Assembly (NCBI RefSeq): GCF_000153285.1
Contig: NZ_CH724168.1
Span: 1,083,008 to 1,147,007 of the forward strand
Length of the DNA stretch: 64,000 bases
Origin: Synechococcus sp. WH 7805
Lineage (GTDB): Bacteria; Cyanobacteriota; Cyanobacteriia; PCC-6307; Cyanobiaceae
Reading direction: 5' to 3'
Shown: positions 42,890 through 58,754 of the stretch, piece after piece
Layout of the letters: every line of letters starts with the position of its first letter
Numbering within the stretch: position 1 is the first letter of the stretch
Made by a program: the position numbers and the translations under genes
Notes under the pieces: model-generated
Databases searched by the model: none
Told to the model about the DNA's origin: nothing
Seen by the model: only the letters and a program-made list of their open reading frames with translations

Positions 42890-43531
42890 ATGAATGAGGC
42901 CCTTATCCGGTTGATCCGAAGCCTCAGCGCCAGCTTCAGCAACCAAGAACAAGCGTTTGAAAACCCGCCTCTTTACGGCAACATTTTGGTCCGGCTACGC
43001 CCTCTGCCCCAGCTGGATCCGGGATCTCTCTTGCTCGAGCAGGCCTACGCCATCGCCTCAAACGAGCCCTACCGAGTTCGGGTGCTGCAGCCGACCGTCT
43101 GCCCGACGCGTGGCCTGTTGATCCTGAACTACGCGATCCGCGACGATCAGCGCTTCTGGGGCAGTGTCGAAGACCCACAGCGACGCAGCCAGCTCACGGC
43201 AGCCGATCTCACCTTGCTGGAAGGGTGCTCATACCAAGTGCGCGAAACGGATGAGGGGTTCCGTGGCGAGGTTGAACCTGGATGCCGATGCCTGGTAACC
43301 CGGCGGGGGAAAACCTCGTATCTCGTGAGCAGCTTTGAGCTCACGGATGACGGGATGAGCACCATCGACAGGGGATACGACCCGGCGACACACGAGCATC
43401 TATGGGGATCGATCGCAGGTCCGTTCCAGTTCAAACGCACGGACGATCACAGCGCTGAGATCCCTCATCACTGGGTCACTGATCTCAAGAACACCGGCGG
43501 TACTGTGTTGGGCAATGGGGAGGACAGGTGA
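42890..43531 (+). CDS. cpcT: CpcT-type phycobiliprotein lyase
   Basis: A lyase of the CpcT/CpeT family (lipocalin-like beta barrel), 213 residues. The family pattern is visible: LIRLIRSLSASFSNQEQAFE at the start, LLLEQAYAIASNEPYRVRVL, GCSYQVRETDEGFRGEVEPG and FQFKRT. CpcT attaches bilin to Cys-153/155 of phycocyanin beta. A second family member (cpeT, 50205) lies beside cpeS, so this copy is best assigned to phycocyanin. The start was set at the ATG at 42890; an ATG at 42860 is the alternative. It is coupled to the next gene by a 4-base GTGA overlap. Confidence 0.82.
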   Translation: MNEALIRLIRSLSASFSNQEQAFENPPLYGNILVRLRPLPQLDPGSLLLEQAYAIASNEPYRVRVLQPTVCPTRGLLILNYAIRDDQRFWGSVEDPQRRSQLTAADLTLLEGCSYQVRETDEGFRGEVEPGCRCLVTRRGKTSYLVSSFELTDDGMSTIDRGYDPATHEHLWGSIAGPFQFKRTDDHSAEIPHHWVTDLKNTGGTVLGNGEDR

Positions 43532-43971
43532 CGCAATCGTCTGAAGCCATCATCCGTTCGCTCACGTCGAAGCTGGCTCCAGACATGGAGCTTCGCCTGT
43601 CCATCGGCGACGGCGTTCTGCGCATCAATGTGAAACCGGACGATCGCACGCTCTGGCAAGACACACTCCTAACCATCACTGAGCCCGGCAACGTTCTCCT
43701 GGCATGTGAAAGCAGCTCCTGCGCATTAGAGGCCACGAGGCTGACCTGGGTCGTTGGAGCTGCAATTCGTGACACCTCAATCGACCAAGCCGAAGCGATC
43801 GTGAACCTGCTGCAGTCCCTCGGGGTGGCATCGAACCTGGCTGAAGCGGTACCGGAGCACTGCCCAGGCCTTGCTGAGGAGATGACCTGGGCGTTCTATC
43901 TCGAACGCCATGGCTGGCTGACGGCATGCCCCGTGTTGCCATCAATGGCCTCTGGACAGTCAGAGCCATGA
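43528..43971 (+). CDS. Hypothetical protein coupled to cpcT
   Basis: A 147-residue protein starting MTQSSEAIIRSLTSKLAPDM at a GTG that overlaps the cpcT stop. The sequence is mixed alpha/beta (MELRLSIGDGVLRINVKPDD, LLACESSSCALEATRLTWVV) with four cysteines, and has no signal peptide or membrane segment. I recognise no family. Tight coupling with a lyase gene suggests a function in phycocyanin maturation. An ATG overlaps its own stop as ATGA, leading into the broken frame described next. Confidence 0.75.
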   Translation: MTQSSEAIIRSLTSKLAPDMELRLSIGDGVLRINVKPDDRTLWQDTLLTITEPGNVLLACESSSCALEATRLTWVVGAAIRDTSIDQAEAIVNLLQSLGVASNLAEAVPEHCPGLAEEMTWAFYLERHGWLTACPVLPSMASGQSEP

Positions 43972-44378: not shown

Positions 44379-45101
44379 ATGGCACTTCAGCTCCTGGAGT
44401 ACCCGTTGACAAGCCAAAACCAGCGCGTCGGGGATTTGGGTGGCCTGACGTCCGAACTCAATCGGGCAACCTTTCCGAGCCGCGACGATCGCAACGCTCA
44501 GATTGAAAAGGCCTACCGGCAAATCTTCTTCCATGCGATGAAGTGCGACCGGGACGTCAACCTGGAGTCACAGTTCCGTGATGGCAGCATCACCACCCGT
44601 GACTTCATCCGCGGCCTGCTGCTCTCGAGGAGGTTCCAGGAAGGCTATGTCTCCTGCAACACCAATTACCGCCTAGTCGATCAGGTGATAGGACGCGTGC
44701 TAGGGCGTCCGGTTCACGGCCAGAGCGAGCGGATCAGTTGGTCAATCGTGATCGCCCAAAAAGGCTTCAGCGGTTTTGTGGATGCTGTCTTGGACAGCAC
44801 TGAATATCTCGATGCCTTTGGATATGACGACGTACCAGCCCATCGATCAAGGGTGATTCCTGGCGCTCCTACAGGAGAGATGCCGATCTACCAGCGCTTC
44901 CCTCGCTATGGCCGCGACCACAGGGACATGCTGTGGGAGCAGAAGCTGCTGACAAAAGATGAGCTCAACCAGCTTCCCACCTGGATGCAGAAGCCACCGG
45001 CATGGGCGAAGAAATTCTGGTTGGGCTTGGCCTTGGTCGGCAGTGTGGAAATCCTGCGAATCCTCGTCATCGTGGCAGGCTCGATGCTCAGCACTCGTTG
45101 A
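44379..45101 (+). CDS. cpcG: Phycobilisome rod linker, CpcG/CpcL type with C-terminal hydrophobic segment
   Basis: A 240-residue linker with one PBS-linker (REPEAT) domain (about residues 20-150): MALQLLEYPLTSQNQRVGDL at the start, QIEKAYRQIFFHAMKCDRD, RDFIRGLLLSRRF, YRLVDQVIGRVLGRP. Normal CpcG ends in a soluble core-binding part. Here residues about 212-236 (KFWLGLALVGSVEILRILVI then VAGSM) form one hydrophobic stretch long enough to cross a membrane. That is the hallmark of CpcL (CpcG2), which anchors rods to the thylakoid and feeds photosystem I. Assignment to CpcL rather than core-linking CpcG is inference. The stop overlaps the next start (TTGA). Confidence 0.85.
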   Translation: MALQLLEYPLTSQNQRVGDLGGLTSELNRATFPSRDDRNAQIEKAYRQIFFHAMKCDRDVNLESQFRDGSITTRDFIRGLLLSRRFQEGYVSCNTNYRLVDQVIGRVLGRPVHGQSERISWSIVIAQKGFSGFVDAVLDSTEYLDAFGYDDVPAHRSRVIPGAPTGEMPIYQRFPRYGRDHRDMLWEQKLLTKDELNQLPTWMQKPPAWAKKFWLGLALVGSVEILRILVIVAGSMLSTR

Positions 45102-45805
45102 CCTTCTTGGATTCCAAGCTGCAGCTGGCCCACTGGCTTCCGCCTGAACAAACACGACCTGAAACCCTCTCGGGCCCTTTGAAAGATGCCCGGGGGGCAG
45201 ATTGGCGGGGCCTCGTCCTCGGCTCCATCGATCTGAGTGGCGCGCTGCTGTGTCGCGTCGATCTCAGGGGCAGTGATCTGAGCTCCTGCTCGTTGGAGGG
45301 AGCCGATCTGCGCTTGGCGCGCTACGACAGCAAGACCGTGTTCCCCGAGGGGTTTGAGATCCGGAGCAGCGGCGCAGTGGGACCTGGCGCTCGCCTCAAC
45401 GGTGCCTTCCTGAATGGAGCCAACCTCAGAGACATGGACCTCAGAGGCACCAATCTGATGGGCAGCTATCTCAGTGGAGCCGACCTCAGCGGATGCCTGC
45501 TGGACCAGGTTCGACTGGTGGGAGCGGATCTGCGCCATGCCGTACTTCGAGGAGCCCGATGCCGTGGCACCCGATTCGGAGGCTGTCAGCTTGACTTTGC
45601 CGACTTCCGCGGAGCCGACCTCACGGACGCGGGACTTGAAGGGGTGGAGTCCATCCGAGGCGCCGATTTTTCCTTAACGACAGGCCTAGACCCCCTGAGA
45701 AACCATCTGCTCAGCAGGCCCATTCAGGAGCTTGACTGCTGGAACCCGTTGACACGGCAAAGCACAAGGGCGTCGCTCGACGCAGCAGCCGCGAACCCGA
45801 AATAA
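45098..45805 (+). CDS. Pentapeptide-repeat protein coupled to cpcG/L
   Basis: A 235-residue protein with a right-handed beta-helix of A(D/N)LXX repeats from about residue 30 to 195, e.g. LSGALLCRVDLRGSDLSSCS, LNGAFLNGANLRDMDLRGTN and LSGADLSGCLLDQVRLVGAD. The tail is short and not repeated. The start is a TTG at 45098 that shares bases with the cpcG-type stop, and gives MTFLDSKLQLAHWLPPEQTR. Pentapeptide proteins are scaffold or inhibitor-like structures; in cyanobacteria none is a standard phycobilisome part. The tight coupling argues that it serves the same complex as the linker. Confidence 0.82.
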   Translation: MTFLDSKLQLAHWLPPEQTRPETLSGPLKDARGADWRGLVLGSIDLSGALLCRVDLRGSDLSSCSLEGADLRLARYDSKTVFPEGFEIRSSGAVGPGARLNGAFLNGANLRDMDLRGTNLMGSYLSGADLSGCLLDQVRLVGADLRHAVLRGARCRGTRFGGCQLDFADFRGADLTDAGLEGVESIRGADFSLTTGLDPLRNHLLSRPIQELDCWNPLTRQSTRASLDAAAANPK

Positions 45806-45953
45806 CAGCCAAGCCGCTACCTAAAAAGCAAGCCGCTGTCAAAAAAATGCAGTGTCACGCAACACTCAAACACAATTGATTGAGCTTTATTGCGAAACAC
45901 GCCCGCATCCCTGATCACATCTGAGCATGGCAGCGAGTTGTCATCCGCTGTTT

Positions 45954-46838
45954 ATGCCCTTCGGTCCCGCCTCACTCCTCGGGGTTGAGCGTTTCTCTCA
46001 GGAAAGCGAAGCTCCGCTCGAGCTGATCCCTGGGGATGACGACGCCAAGAAAGAACAGATCATCAATGCGGTGTACAAGCAGGTGCTTGGCAACGCCTAT
46101 GTGATGGAGAGCGAGCGTCAGCTCGTGGCTGAATCCCAGTTCAAGCTCGGTGAAATCAGCGTGCGCGAGTTCGTGCGCATGGTTGCCAAGAGCGAGCTGT
46201 ACCGCGGCCGTTTCTTCGACACCTGCGCCCGCTACCGCTACATCGAACTGGCCTTCCGCCACCTGCTGGGACGCGCACCCGTGGACTTCGATGAGATGCG
46301 TGCCCATGCCGAGCGCCTGGACAGCAAGGGCTACGACGCCGACATCGACAGCTTCCTCGATTCCGACGACTACCAAAACACCTTTGGTGAGTGGACGGTG
46401 CCTTACCAGCGCGGCTGGAAGACCGAAAGCTGCACCACCATGCAGGAGTTCACCTGGAGCTTCCAGCTGCTGCGGGGCAACAGCAGCAGCAGCCTGAAAG
46501 GCGACCTTTCCGGCATCACCAGCAAGCTTGGCGGCAACGCTTACCAGAACCGCCCCATGGCGGTGGTTCCCCCCTCCTCCAGCGAAACCCAGGGCTGGAG
46601 CTTCCGTCCCTCCAAGAACCTGCAGGACGCCGCCACCCGCCTGGGCAGCGGCGCCACCGATCAGGGCAAGACCTACCGGGTGGAAGTCACCGGGTACAGC
46701 GCCAACAACGTGCGGCGCATCTCCCGCTACACCCGCTCCAACCGGGTGTACTACGTGCCCTTCGACAAGCTCTCCGAGCAGTTCAAGCGCATCCATGCCG
46801 AAGGCGGCACGATCGCCAGCATCACCCCCGCGAACTGA
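45954..46838 (+). CDS. cpeC: Phycoerythrin-associated linker CpeC
   Basis: A rod linker of 294 residues for phycoerythrin hexamers. A PBS-linker domain (about residues 28-160: KKEQIINAVYKQVLGNAYVM, ESERQLVAESQF, IELAFRHLLGRAPVDFDEM) is followed by a Ser/Gly-rich hinge. A C-terminal CpcD-like domain (about 235-292: KTYRVEVTGYSANNVRRISR, YYVPFDKLSEQFKRIHAEGG) completes it. The start is the ATG at 45954 (MPFGPASLLGVERFSQ), the family N-terminus. It opens the linker cluster cpeC-cpeE-cpeD. A strong inverted repeat separates it from cpeE. Confidence 0.9.
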   Translation: MPFGPASLLGVERFSQESEAPLELIPGDDDAKKEQIINAVYKQVLGNAYVMESERQLVAESQFKLGEISVREFVRMVAKSELYRGRFFDTCARYRYIELAFRHLLGRAPVDFDEMRAHAERLDSKGYDADIDSFLDSDDYQNTFGEWTVPYQRGWKTESCTTMQEFTWSFQLLRGNSSSSLKGDLSGITSKLGGNAYQNRPMAVVPPSSSETQGWSFRPSKNLQDAATRLGSGATDQGKTYRVEVTGYSANNVRRISRYTRSNRVYYVPFDKLSEQFKRIHAEGGTIASITPAN

Positions 46839-46867
46839 GGTACACCCTCAGTCCTGCTCCCATAGCA

Positions 46868-46902
46868 GAACCTTCTGGATGGTGAGACCAGCCAGAAGGT
46901 TC
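46868..46902 (+). repeat. Intercistronic hairpin between cpeC and cpeE
   Basis: GAACCTTCTGG pairs with CCAGAAGGTTC, and the inner TGGT with ACCA around GAG, giving 15 base pairs with one-base bulges on each side (A and G). No T-run follows, so it is more likely an mRNA stability or processing element than a terminator. Confidence 0.75.
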
Positions 46903-46953
46903 CGGGAGTAACGCCTGCTTTCCCAAACAAGGCCCTCCAACACCAATTCTCCC

Positions 46954-48573
46954 ATGTCTTCCAACAGCTCTAACGCCCTTGGCTTCGGCGCCACCCAACT
47001 GATCCCCGGCCCCGTCTCGTACTCCCGCACCCGCACCCCCTCCGGCAGTGCAGCTGTGCGCAACGGCGACTTCCGCAATCAGGGCACCAAGGCTTCCGTC
47101 GATTTCTTTGCCGCAGACGACGAAACCGCCTTTGCCGCCACCGTGCGGGCTGCTTACCGCCAAGTGTTTGGCAACGTGCAACCCATGGAGAGCGAGCGTG
47201 CCACCAGCGCCGAATCCATGCTCCGCAACGGCGACATCAGTGTGCGCGAGTTCATCCGCACCATCGCCAAATCAGAGTTTTACCGGTCCCGCTACTTCGA
47301 GGCGGTTGGCCCCCACCGTGCTGTTGAACTGAGCTTCAAGCACCTGCTGGGCCGCGGCCCCGTCAACGAAGCGGAAATCACCGCCCAGGTAACGCTGATG
47401 GCCGACGGTGGTTTCGACGCCGCCATCGACGGAATCCTGGATTCCGACGAGTACATCCAAGCCTTCGGGGAAGACACCGTCCCCTACTCGAGCAGCTTCA
47501 CCAGCCAGGCCGGTCAGCCCCAGGCCAGCTTCAACCGCATTGCCGCACTCGAGCGGAATTTTGCCGGCAGCGATACGGCCATCGGCAGCCGCAGTCAGCT
47601 GCTGGGCAACCTGGCCCAGGGCTACACCATTCGCATCAATCCGCCCGCTCAGGTGTATCGCAGCGATTCATTCGTTGCTGGTGGTTTCACCGGCAGCGGC
47701 AGCGCTCGCAGTGTCTTTGCACCGGTGAAGCGCAGCACCGCTGATGGAGGGGACAGCGCTCCCATGCGTGGAGACCTCTACGTCGGTTTTGGCCTTGGTC
47801 AACGGGTCCAAGAGACCTTCGAACGTTGCGAGGGCGACTCCGCCGATCAAATCAACGCTCTGATCCGCTCCACCTACCGCCAGGTGATGGGCAACCCTCA
47901 TCTGATGGAAAGCGAGCGCAGCCTCACCGCTGAAAGCAAATTCGCCGAGGGCACCCTCAGCACCCGCGAATTTGTCCGCGCCATCGCCCTCTCTGCGGAA
48001 TACAGCCGTCGCTTCTTCGAGACCAACGCGCCCTACCGCTTCGTTGAGCTCAACTTCAAGCACCTGCTCGGACGCGCACCTGTGTCTCAAGCTGAGGTGA
48101 GCGAGCACATTCAGCGCCTGGCCAACGAAGGCTACGAAGCTGAGATCAACAGCTACCTCGACGGCAGCGAGTATCAGGAAGCCTTTGGGGAGTACACCAT
48201 TCCCTTCCAGCGTGTGAGCACCGAGAACGGTCGCTCCCAGGTGGCCTTCAACCGCAACCTCGCCCTGTCCCAGGGGTACGCCTCGAGCGACACCGTTCAA
48301 ACGAGCTCAACCCTTGTGACCTCGGTTGCAACGAACAGCTCACCCAACAACTGGAACAGCACCACCCAGCGGATCAACCGCATCGGCGCTGCTTCTGGCA
48401 CAACCGAGCCCACCGGCAAGCGCTACCGGATCGTGGTTCAAGCGCAGCCGGCTGGTGGTCGTCAGCGCACGCCAAATGCCAGCTATCTCGTTTCGGGCAA
48501 AGACATGACCTCCCAGCTGGGCTACATCCACCGCCGCGGTGGCCGGATCGTATCGATCACCGAAGTGATCTGA
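46954..48573 (+). CDS. cpeE: Double-domain phycoerythrin linker CpeE
   Basis: A 539-residue linker with two PBS-linker domains (about residues 60-190 and 300-430) and a C-terminal CpcD-like domain (about 480-539: KRYRIVVQAQPAGGRQRTPN, LGYIHRRGGRIVSITEV). Domain 1 holds VRAAYRQVFGNVQPMESERA and LSFKHLLGRGPVNEAE; domain 2 holds IRSTYRQVMGNPHLMESERS and LNFKHLLGRAPVSQAE. The two-domain structure and length are those of CpeE in phycoerythrin-containing marine Synechococcus. It joins two hexamers of the rod. It is followed by cpeD after about 45 bases. Confidence 0.9.
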   Translation: MSSNSSNALGFGATQLIPGPVSYSRTRTPSGSAAVRNGDFRNQGTKASVDFFAADDETAFAATVRAAYRQVFGNVQPMESERATSAESMLRNGDISVREFIRTIAKSEFYRSRYFEAVGPHRAVELSFKHLLGRGPVNEAEITAQVTLMADGGFDAAIDGILDSDEYIQAFGEDTVPYSSSFTSQAGQPQASFNRIAALERNFAGSDTAIGSRSQLLGNLAQGYTIRINPPAQVYRSDSFVAGGFTGSGSARSVFAPVKRSTADGGDSAPMRGDLYVGFGLGQRVQETFERCEGDSADQINALIRSTYRQVMGNPHLMESERSLTAESKFAEGTLSTREFVRAIALSAEYSRRFFETNAPYRFVELNFKHLLGRAPVSQAEVSEHIQRLANEGYEAEINSYLDGSEYQEAFGEYTIPFQRVSTENGRSQVAFNRNLALSQGYASSDTVQTSSTLVTSVATNSSPNNWNSTTQRINRIGAASGTTEPTGKRYRIVVQAQPAGGRQRTPNASYLVSGKDMTSQLGYIHRRGGRIVSITEVI

Positions 48574-48619
48574 TCACTGTTCATCAACCCTTTCCTGCCC
48601 CCGTACCCCCCTTCGATTG

Positions 48620-49360
48620 ATGACTGAAGCCACCGTGAACACCGCGAATTCCGACCTGCGCCAGGCTGATGCGCAGGCCGTAATCCGTGCGGCCTACCGC
48701 CAGGTGTTCGGCAACGCCCACCTGATGGATGAAGAGCGCTGCAGCTCAGCCGAAAGCCTCTACATGAATGGCGACCTCAACGTTCAGGGCCTAGTGACCG
48801 CCTTTGCCCAGTCGGACACCTACCGCCGTCTGTTCCTGGACAAGAACGGTCCCTACCGCTTCGTTGAGCTCAACTTCAAGCATCTGCTTGGTCGTGCCCC
48901 CCACAACCAAGCCGAGCTCAGTGAGCACGTTCAGCGCCTCGCCAACGAGGGTTATGAAGCTGAAATCAACAGCTACACCTACAGCGACGAATACCTCAAC
49001 GCCTTCGGTGTCGACGATGTTCCGGCGATGCGCGGCAACAGCAGCCAATTGGGTCAGAGCAATGTGAGCTACACCCGCTCCGTGGCAATGGACTCCGGCT
49101 TCGCAGGCTTTGACGGCAGTAATTCCTCCATCCTGCTCTCGAGCATCGGCACCAATTCAGCCCCTGCTGCCGGTCCCAAGACCCCCGGCCCCGGCAACCG
49201 GGACAGCAAGCGTTACACCATCACCTGGACCACGGCATCCCCTGTGGGTGTGCGTCGCCGCTCGGTGCAACGCACCTCGGCTCCCTACAGCTCCCTCACC
49301 ACGAGCATCCAGGCCATTCAGAAGCGTGGTGGTCGCATTCTTTCTATTGCGAACACTTAA
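48620..49360 (+). CDS. cpeD: Phycoerythrin-associated linker CpeD
   Basis: A 246-residue linker with one PBS-linker domain (about residues 15-140: IRAAYRQVFGNAHLMDEERC, LNFKHLLGRAPHNQAELSEH) and a C-terminal CpcD-like domain (about 195-246: KRYTITWTTASPVGVRRRSV, IQAIQKRGGRILSI). Domain sequence is closest to the second domain of the neighbouring CpeE, suggesting an old duplication. The ATG at 48620 was preferred to the TTG just before it. A terminator follows at 49408. Confidence 0.85.
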   Translation: MTEATVNTANSDLRQADAQAVIRAAYRQVFGNAHLMDEERCSSAESLYMNGDLNVQGLVTAFAQSDTYRRLFLDKNGPYRFVELNFKHLLGRAPHNQAELSEHVQRLANEGYEAEINSYTYSDEYLNAFGVDDVPAMRGNSSQLGQSNVSYTRSVAMDSGFAGFDGSNSSILLSSIGTNSAPAAGPKTPGPGNRDSKRYTITWTTASPVGVRRRSVQRTSAPYSSLTTSIQAIQKRGGRILSIANT

Positions 49361-54997: not shown

Positions 54998-55501
<504 letters not shown>

Positions 55502-55546: not shown

Positions 55547-56470
<924 letters not shown>

Positions 56471-56686: not shown

Positions 56687-56713
56687 GAAACGATGCATAC
56701 CAAGCCCTGCACA

Positions 56714-58754
<2,041 letters not shown>

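Follow-up and report, generated by a model that had tools for sequence, protein, structure and literature searches.

Does the close coupling of a rod-linker gene to a pentapeptide-repeat gene mean that the two proteins work together? In the window, by which we mean the whole 64,000-nucleotide stretch of DNA that was analysed, a CpcG-type linker gene of 240 codons with an ATG start (44379..45101, + strand) is followed at once by a pentapeptide-repeat gene (45098..45805, +). The pair itself had been named cpcGII and unk5 by Six et al. 2007 (PMC2246261) in marine Synechococcus, with the same genes, order and pentapeptide motifs as in the window, unk5 generally lying 3' of cpcGII. Among their 11 marine strains, unk5 was present in all phycoerythrin-containing strains and in neither of the two blue-green ones, and they counted it among the genes probably needed for phycoerythrin. 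Our analysis adds to that study the wide distribution of unk5, its head-to-head arrangement with cpeU-pebAB, the phylogenetic profile that it shares with CpeU, a comparison of CpcL-type tails and a predicted structure of Unk5.

The linker contains a single PF00427 domain, as CpcL requires (residues 34-156, E 1.4e-35, 122.6 bits against a cut-off of 28.7), and has orthologues in picocyanobacteria. The NCBIfam profile reaching furthest toward its C-terminus was CpcG3 (residues 1-226). The tail, residues 213-237 (45015..45089, +; FWLGLALVGSVEILRILVIVAGSML), forms a putative hydrophobic helix with a mean Kyte-Doolittle hydropathy of 2.28 over 19 residues. By the same 19-residue measure, the tails of all full-length CpcGII proteins, the window protein included, ranged from 1.55 to 2.28, whereas the CpcGI paralogues of the same and related genomes had a basic, hydrophilic tail, DYxxKVPYRSxGR, with a maximum hydropathy of 0.98 or less. 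The preliminary description had expected such a stretch as a mark of CpcL, and this was borne out, the core-binding type of CpcG having no such tail. Because the helix is present here and absent from the other CpcG of the same genome, the CpcL-like character of the linker looks real, judged from sequence. CpcL of Synechocystis (8HFQ), which forms rods that have no core and are joined to photosystem I (PMC10322944), likewise has one PF00427 domain and then a C-terminal hydrophobic helix; the window linker aligns with 8hfq_n across residues 1-207, although the two hydrophobic tails are unlike in sequence. By analogy, the window protein may attach rods to the membrane or photosystem I in this organism. 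Mass spectrometry by Six et al. 2007 found no CpcGII in the phycobilisome fractions of the strains examined, although the same authors had seen the protein earlier in WH8102 (PMC2246261). Its absence from these fractions fits membrane attachment, short of proof. Within the hydrophobic helix, the motif EILR (45048-45059, residues 224-227) pairs a Glu with an Arg three positions further on; both recur in many marine Synechococcus CpcL tails, but several tails from Cyanobium and Pseudanabaenaceae lack them. They could possibly be an intramembrane contact point.

How tight is the coupling? A TTG at 45098 does open a 235-residue pentapeptide reading frame with a 4-nt overlap (TTGA) with the cpcL stop, as first described. 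Three close relatives (L012, L013 and L096) end cpcL with TAA and thereby have no overlapping TTG; there the first in-frame start of unk5 is a GTG at codon 4. Codon 4 in the window is also a possible start, a TTG at 45107, which would give 232 residues and lie 5 nt past the cpcL stop with no overlap. Since the equivalent of the 45098 start is absent in these relatives, the true start may be at 45107. Thus the genes and their tight spacing are real, and the overlap is uncertain. A spacing of a few nucleotides was seen in about 20 picocyanobacterial loci, not all of them. The pentapeptide frame is also open for about 100 nt upstream inside cpcL (45002-45098), but the longer start that this allows, ATG 45002, received no support from the alignments.

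Unk5 belongs to the pentapeptide-repeat proteins (PF00805, E 1e-26), and in our search of 370 genomes matches to such proteins numbered dozens per cyanobacterial genome. Orthologues of Unk5 nevertheless stood sharply apart, at E 1e-37 or better vs about 1e-22 or weaker for generic pentapeptide proteins. Alignments of 7 and 43 sequences revealed two family-specific features: a break in the repeat with invariant and near-invariant columns, ARYDxxTxFPExFxxxSSGAVGPGAxLNGA (45317..45406, +), and a C-terminal cap, ESIxGADFS...GL...LLSxPxxELDxWNPxTRxTTRxSL (45653..45778, +), predicted to be alpha-helical. Both were common to the orthologues across the 43 sequences. The viral contigs searched held generic pentapeptide proteins only and no unk5, so unk5 is not known as a phage-borne pigment gene.

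Orthologues of Unk5 occurred in Nostoc, Planktothrix, Pseudanabaena, Moorena, Oscillatoria, Richelia, Ca. Synechococcus spongiarum and others. One further bearer (G072), which has an 824-residue Glr1262-like linker, is presumably Gloeobacter violaceus. Over the 370 genomes, 95 had both Unk5 and CpeB, 10 had Unk5 only and 14 had CpeB only (phi 0.84; Fisher p 1.7e-60, nominal, with kinship ignored). The agreement with CpeU, an S-type bilin lyase homologue, was closer: 100 genomes shared both, with 5 and 3 exceptions (phi 0.947; Fisher p 6e-80, again nominal and ignoring kinship). Unk5 therefore tracks CpeU more tightly than CpeB. We consider an association of Unk5 with phycoerythrin very likely, and the co-occurrence singles out CpeU as the candidate partner. 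The partnership with CpeU is short of proof, because genes that lie side by side can be transferred and lost together and so come to show the same phylogenetic profile.

The exceptions were informative. Ten of the 14 CpeB-only genomes are small genomes of the same family and, as far as their identity can be inferred, of Prochlorococcus type; in these ten CpeB-positive genomes neither Unk5 nor a CpeU orthologue was found (best CpeU match E 2.5e-17). The phycoerythrin-free picocyanobacteria had neither CpeU nor Unk5. Ten genomes were Unk5-positive and CpeB-negative. Five of them (G137, G142, G339, G359 and G361) kept a full-length PebB and a sixth (G127) a partial one, so that the absence of CpeB there is probably an assembly gap. 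Two others (G082 and G267) kept CpeU and lacked PebB, and the last two (G225 and G316) had unk5 without CpeU or PebB matches, the unk5 of G316 being only partial. In G082, which is Pseudanabaena sp. lw0831 (L148), unk5 adjoins a cpeU gene interrupted by an in-frame stop (contig 95, 93517-94053), and the two genes are likely relics following pigment loss. The pattern in all four genomes looks like decay after loss of the pigment.

We then asked where unk5 lies in 80 named loci. Divergent from unk5 within 2 kb, cpeU was found at 46 of the 55 assessable non-picocyanobacterial loci and at all three assessable loci of Ca. Synechococcus spongiarum (49/58 overall), and at these head-to-head loci pebA and then pebB often followed cpeU. 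None of these non-picocyanobacterial or sponge-symbiont cpeU-divergent loci had cpcL directly upstream of unk5 on the same strand. In the window itself, cpeU (56693..57274, +; upstream of pebA, as Six et al. 2007 define it) is followed by pebA and pebB for phycoerythrobilin synthesis (57271..58754, +), and the phycoerythrin subunit genes cpeA (54998-55492) and cpeB (55547-56107) are on the - strand. Directly 3' of unk5 are the phycoerythrin rod-linker genes (CpeC-like, MpeD-like and CpeE-like; PF00427 and CpcD domains; 45927..49360, +). Since the neighbour of unk5 in most other cyanobacteria is cpeU rather than cpcL, the arrangement in the window is one lineage's form of a wider phycoerythrin gene neighbourhood. 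Even among picocyanobacteria the order varied: freshwater Cyanobium mostly has unk4-unk5-cpeC with cpcL elsewhere, and in several marine strains another linker gene separates cpcL from unk5. The cpcL-unk5 pair was therefore largely not conserved beyond the marine picocyanobacteria. Two Pseudanabaenaceae loci (L043, 3073-9373, and L142) read unk5-cpcL-cpeC-cpeD, the reverse of the picocyanobacterial order, which suggests that the phycoerythrin cluster has had cpcL and unk5 close together on more than one occasion. The sponge symbionts (L135, L137, L139, L140 and L143) have unk5 and cpeU head to head, like distant cyanobacteria and unlike marine Synechococcus; in Ca. Synechococcus spongiarum and related bins, cpeY can come 8-35 nt after unk5.

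These data bear on the original reading, in which Unk5 would serve CpcL as a partner, structural or functional, in photosystem I-attached rods. This reading agrees with the roughly 20 picocyanobacterial loci at which the two genes adjoin and almost overlap, and with the two Pseudanabaenaceae loci with the order reversed. However, phycoerythrin-free picocyanobacteria keep CpcL and have no Unk5, Cyanobium and most of the other cyanobacteria have unk5 far from cpcL, and Unk5 is present in Gloeobacter, which is reported to be without a CpcG homologue (PMC12525769). Because CpcL tails from distant lineages cannot be aligned, the argument consists of these clear exceptions to the pairing, which run both ways. 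We regard the CpcL partnership as very unlikely, and the coupling lends no support to placing Unk5 in a CpcL and photosystem I unit. Tight gene coupling in one lineage should not be read as physical partnership. Could Unk5 instead be a generic pentapeptide protein that sits here by chance? Such proteins are abundant in cyanobacteria, but the loop and cap kept across the 43 sequences, the nominal association with CpeU and the synteny conserved in distant lineages all speak against this, and the phylogenetic profile contradicts a chance adjacency. We take it to be extremely improbable.

We favor, with about even confidence, a reading in which Unk5 is a conserved factor that acts together with CpeU in the maturation or assembly of phycoerythrin. 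Unk5 would be an accessory factor dedicated to phycoerythrin, scaffold or chaperone-like, that would act with CpeU while phycoerythrin is matured or assembled; we infer both its physical contact with CpeU or phycoerythrin and the step that it would help. In marine picocyanobacteria, unk5 has come to lie after cpcL and at the start of the phycoerythrin linker operon, a position that would co-express Unk5 with rod proteins without making it a partner of CpcL. According to PMC10053587, CpeB may receive phycoerythrobilin from homologues of CpeS, CpeT and CpeU, and the phycoerythrin lyases have a chaperone-like helper in CpeZ. CpeZ offers a possible working model for Unk5 as a non-catalytic helper of phycoerythrin chromophorylation, although it is a HEAT-repeat protein with no sequence relation to Unk5. 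A more specific version, in which a beta-helix scaffold would bring CpeU and the bilin-making enzymes together and pass phycoerythrobilin on to apo-phycoerythrin, is improbable in our judgement; if it is true, phycobiliprotein biogenesis would have in Unk5 its first pentapeptide-repeat protein. Phycoerythrin is a major light-harvesting pigment of the ocean. If the maturation reading is right, it adds a conserved member to phycoerythrin biogenesis, for which we found no report of function.

Unk5 might alternatively assemble or cap phycoerythrin rods alongside the phycoerythrin linkers, with no part in the lyase step. It directly precedes a cpeC-type linker gene in the window and in most picocyanobacteria, and the Prochlorococcus-type genomes that keep CpeB without Unk5 were, where tested, also without a CpcL/CpcG-type match (E 1e-25). 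The constant neighbour of unk5 outside picocyanobacteria is, however, cpeU and not the linkers, and solved phycobilisomes, including the phycoerythrin-containing ones of Gloeobacter and red algae, have no pentapeptide chain. Neither Unk5 nor its Gloeobacter orthologue matched any phycobilisome chain deposited in the Protein Data Bank, though loosely bound subunits can be lost. The Gloeobacter phycobilisomes were solved with their phycoerythrin rods, and no pentapeptide protein was named (PMC12525769). As the preliminary description stated, phycobilisomes still have no established pentapeptide component. A stoichiometric structural role in Gloeobacter phycobilisomes is unlikely; a structural role that is transient, loosely bound, of low abundance or easily lost would be compatible with the missing chain. 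Overall, a role in rod assembly seems doubtful to us.

What does the protein itself suggest? The predicted model (pLDDT 95, pTM 0.87) is a right-handed quadrilateral beta-helix with an alpha-helical C-terminal cap. Its best fold matches, over residues 68-229, were Rfr32 (2F3L and 2G0Y) and AT2G44920 (3N90), at Z 20-22 and rmsd 1.3-2.0; for 2F3L the values were Z 22 and rmsd 1.6 over 132 residues. These cyanobacterial and plant proteins are the closest solved pentapeptide folds to Unk5, which differs from them by its extra conserved break in the helix and by the sequence of its cap. Both are also thylakoid-lumenal, whereas Unk5 has no signal peptide. A lumenal role, prompted by the fold, is unlikely, as the N-terminus LDSKLQLAHWLPPEQ is without a hydrophobic signal, and Unk5 is probably soluble and cytoplasmic according to these predictions. 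Pentapeptide proteins have varied roles, in gyrase mimicry, in development and in the lumen, and the beta-helix fold leaves the function of Unk5 unspecified.

HetL and RfrA are regulators elsewhere, and Unk5 might by comparison regulate the expression or turnover of phycoerythrin genes. HetL was the nearest named NCBIfam pentapeptide family, though Unk5 reached only 85.7 of the 260 bits at its cut-off, and the divergent promoter layout with cpeU-pebAB is common for regulators. On the other hand, Unk5 has no DNA-binding or sensor domain, its gene is kept mid-operon in picocyanobacteria, and its strict co-occurrence is with one lyase homologue. Regulation is thus an unlikely function for Unk5.

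Some smaller observations concern the pigment type. Upstream of cpcL is an unk4-like gene (43528..43971, +), whose position and neighbours agree with Six et al. 2007 (PMC2246261); a scan of neighbours found no unk4-like gene beside unk5 outside picocyanobacteria. The interval between unk4 and cpcL holds no gene in the window, and aplA is found there in others. At the threshold used there was one CpeB-class match in the window's genome and two in most marine relatives. The single match and the absent aplA agree with a phycoerythrin-I-only pigment type like that of WH7805. Though the strain thus appears to be without phycoerythrin II, as reported for WH7805, its MpeD-like linker (46954-48573) has two PF00427 domains.
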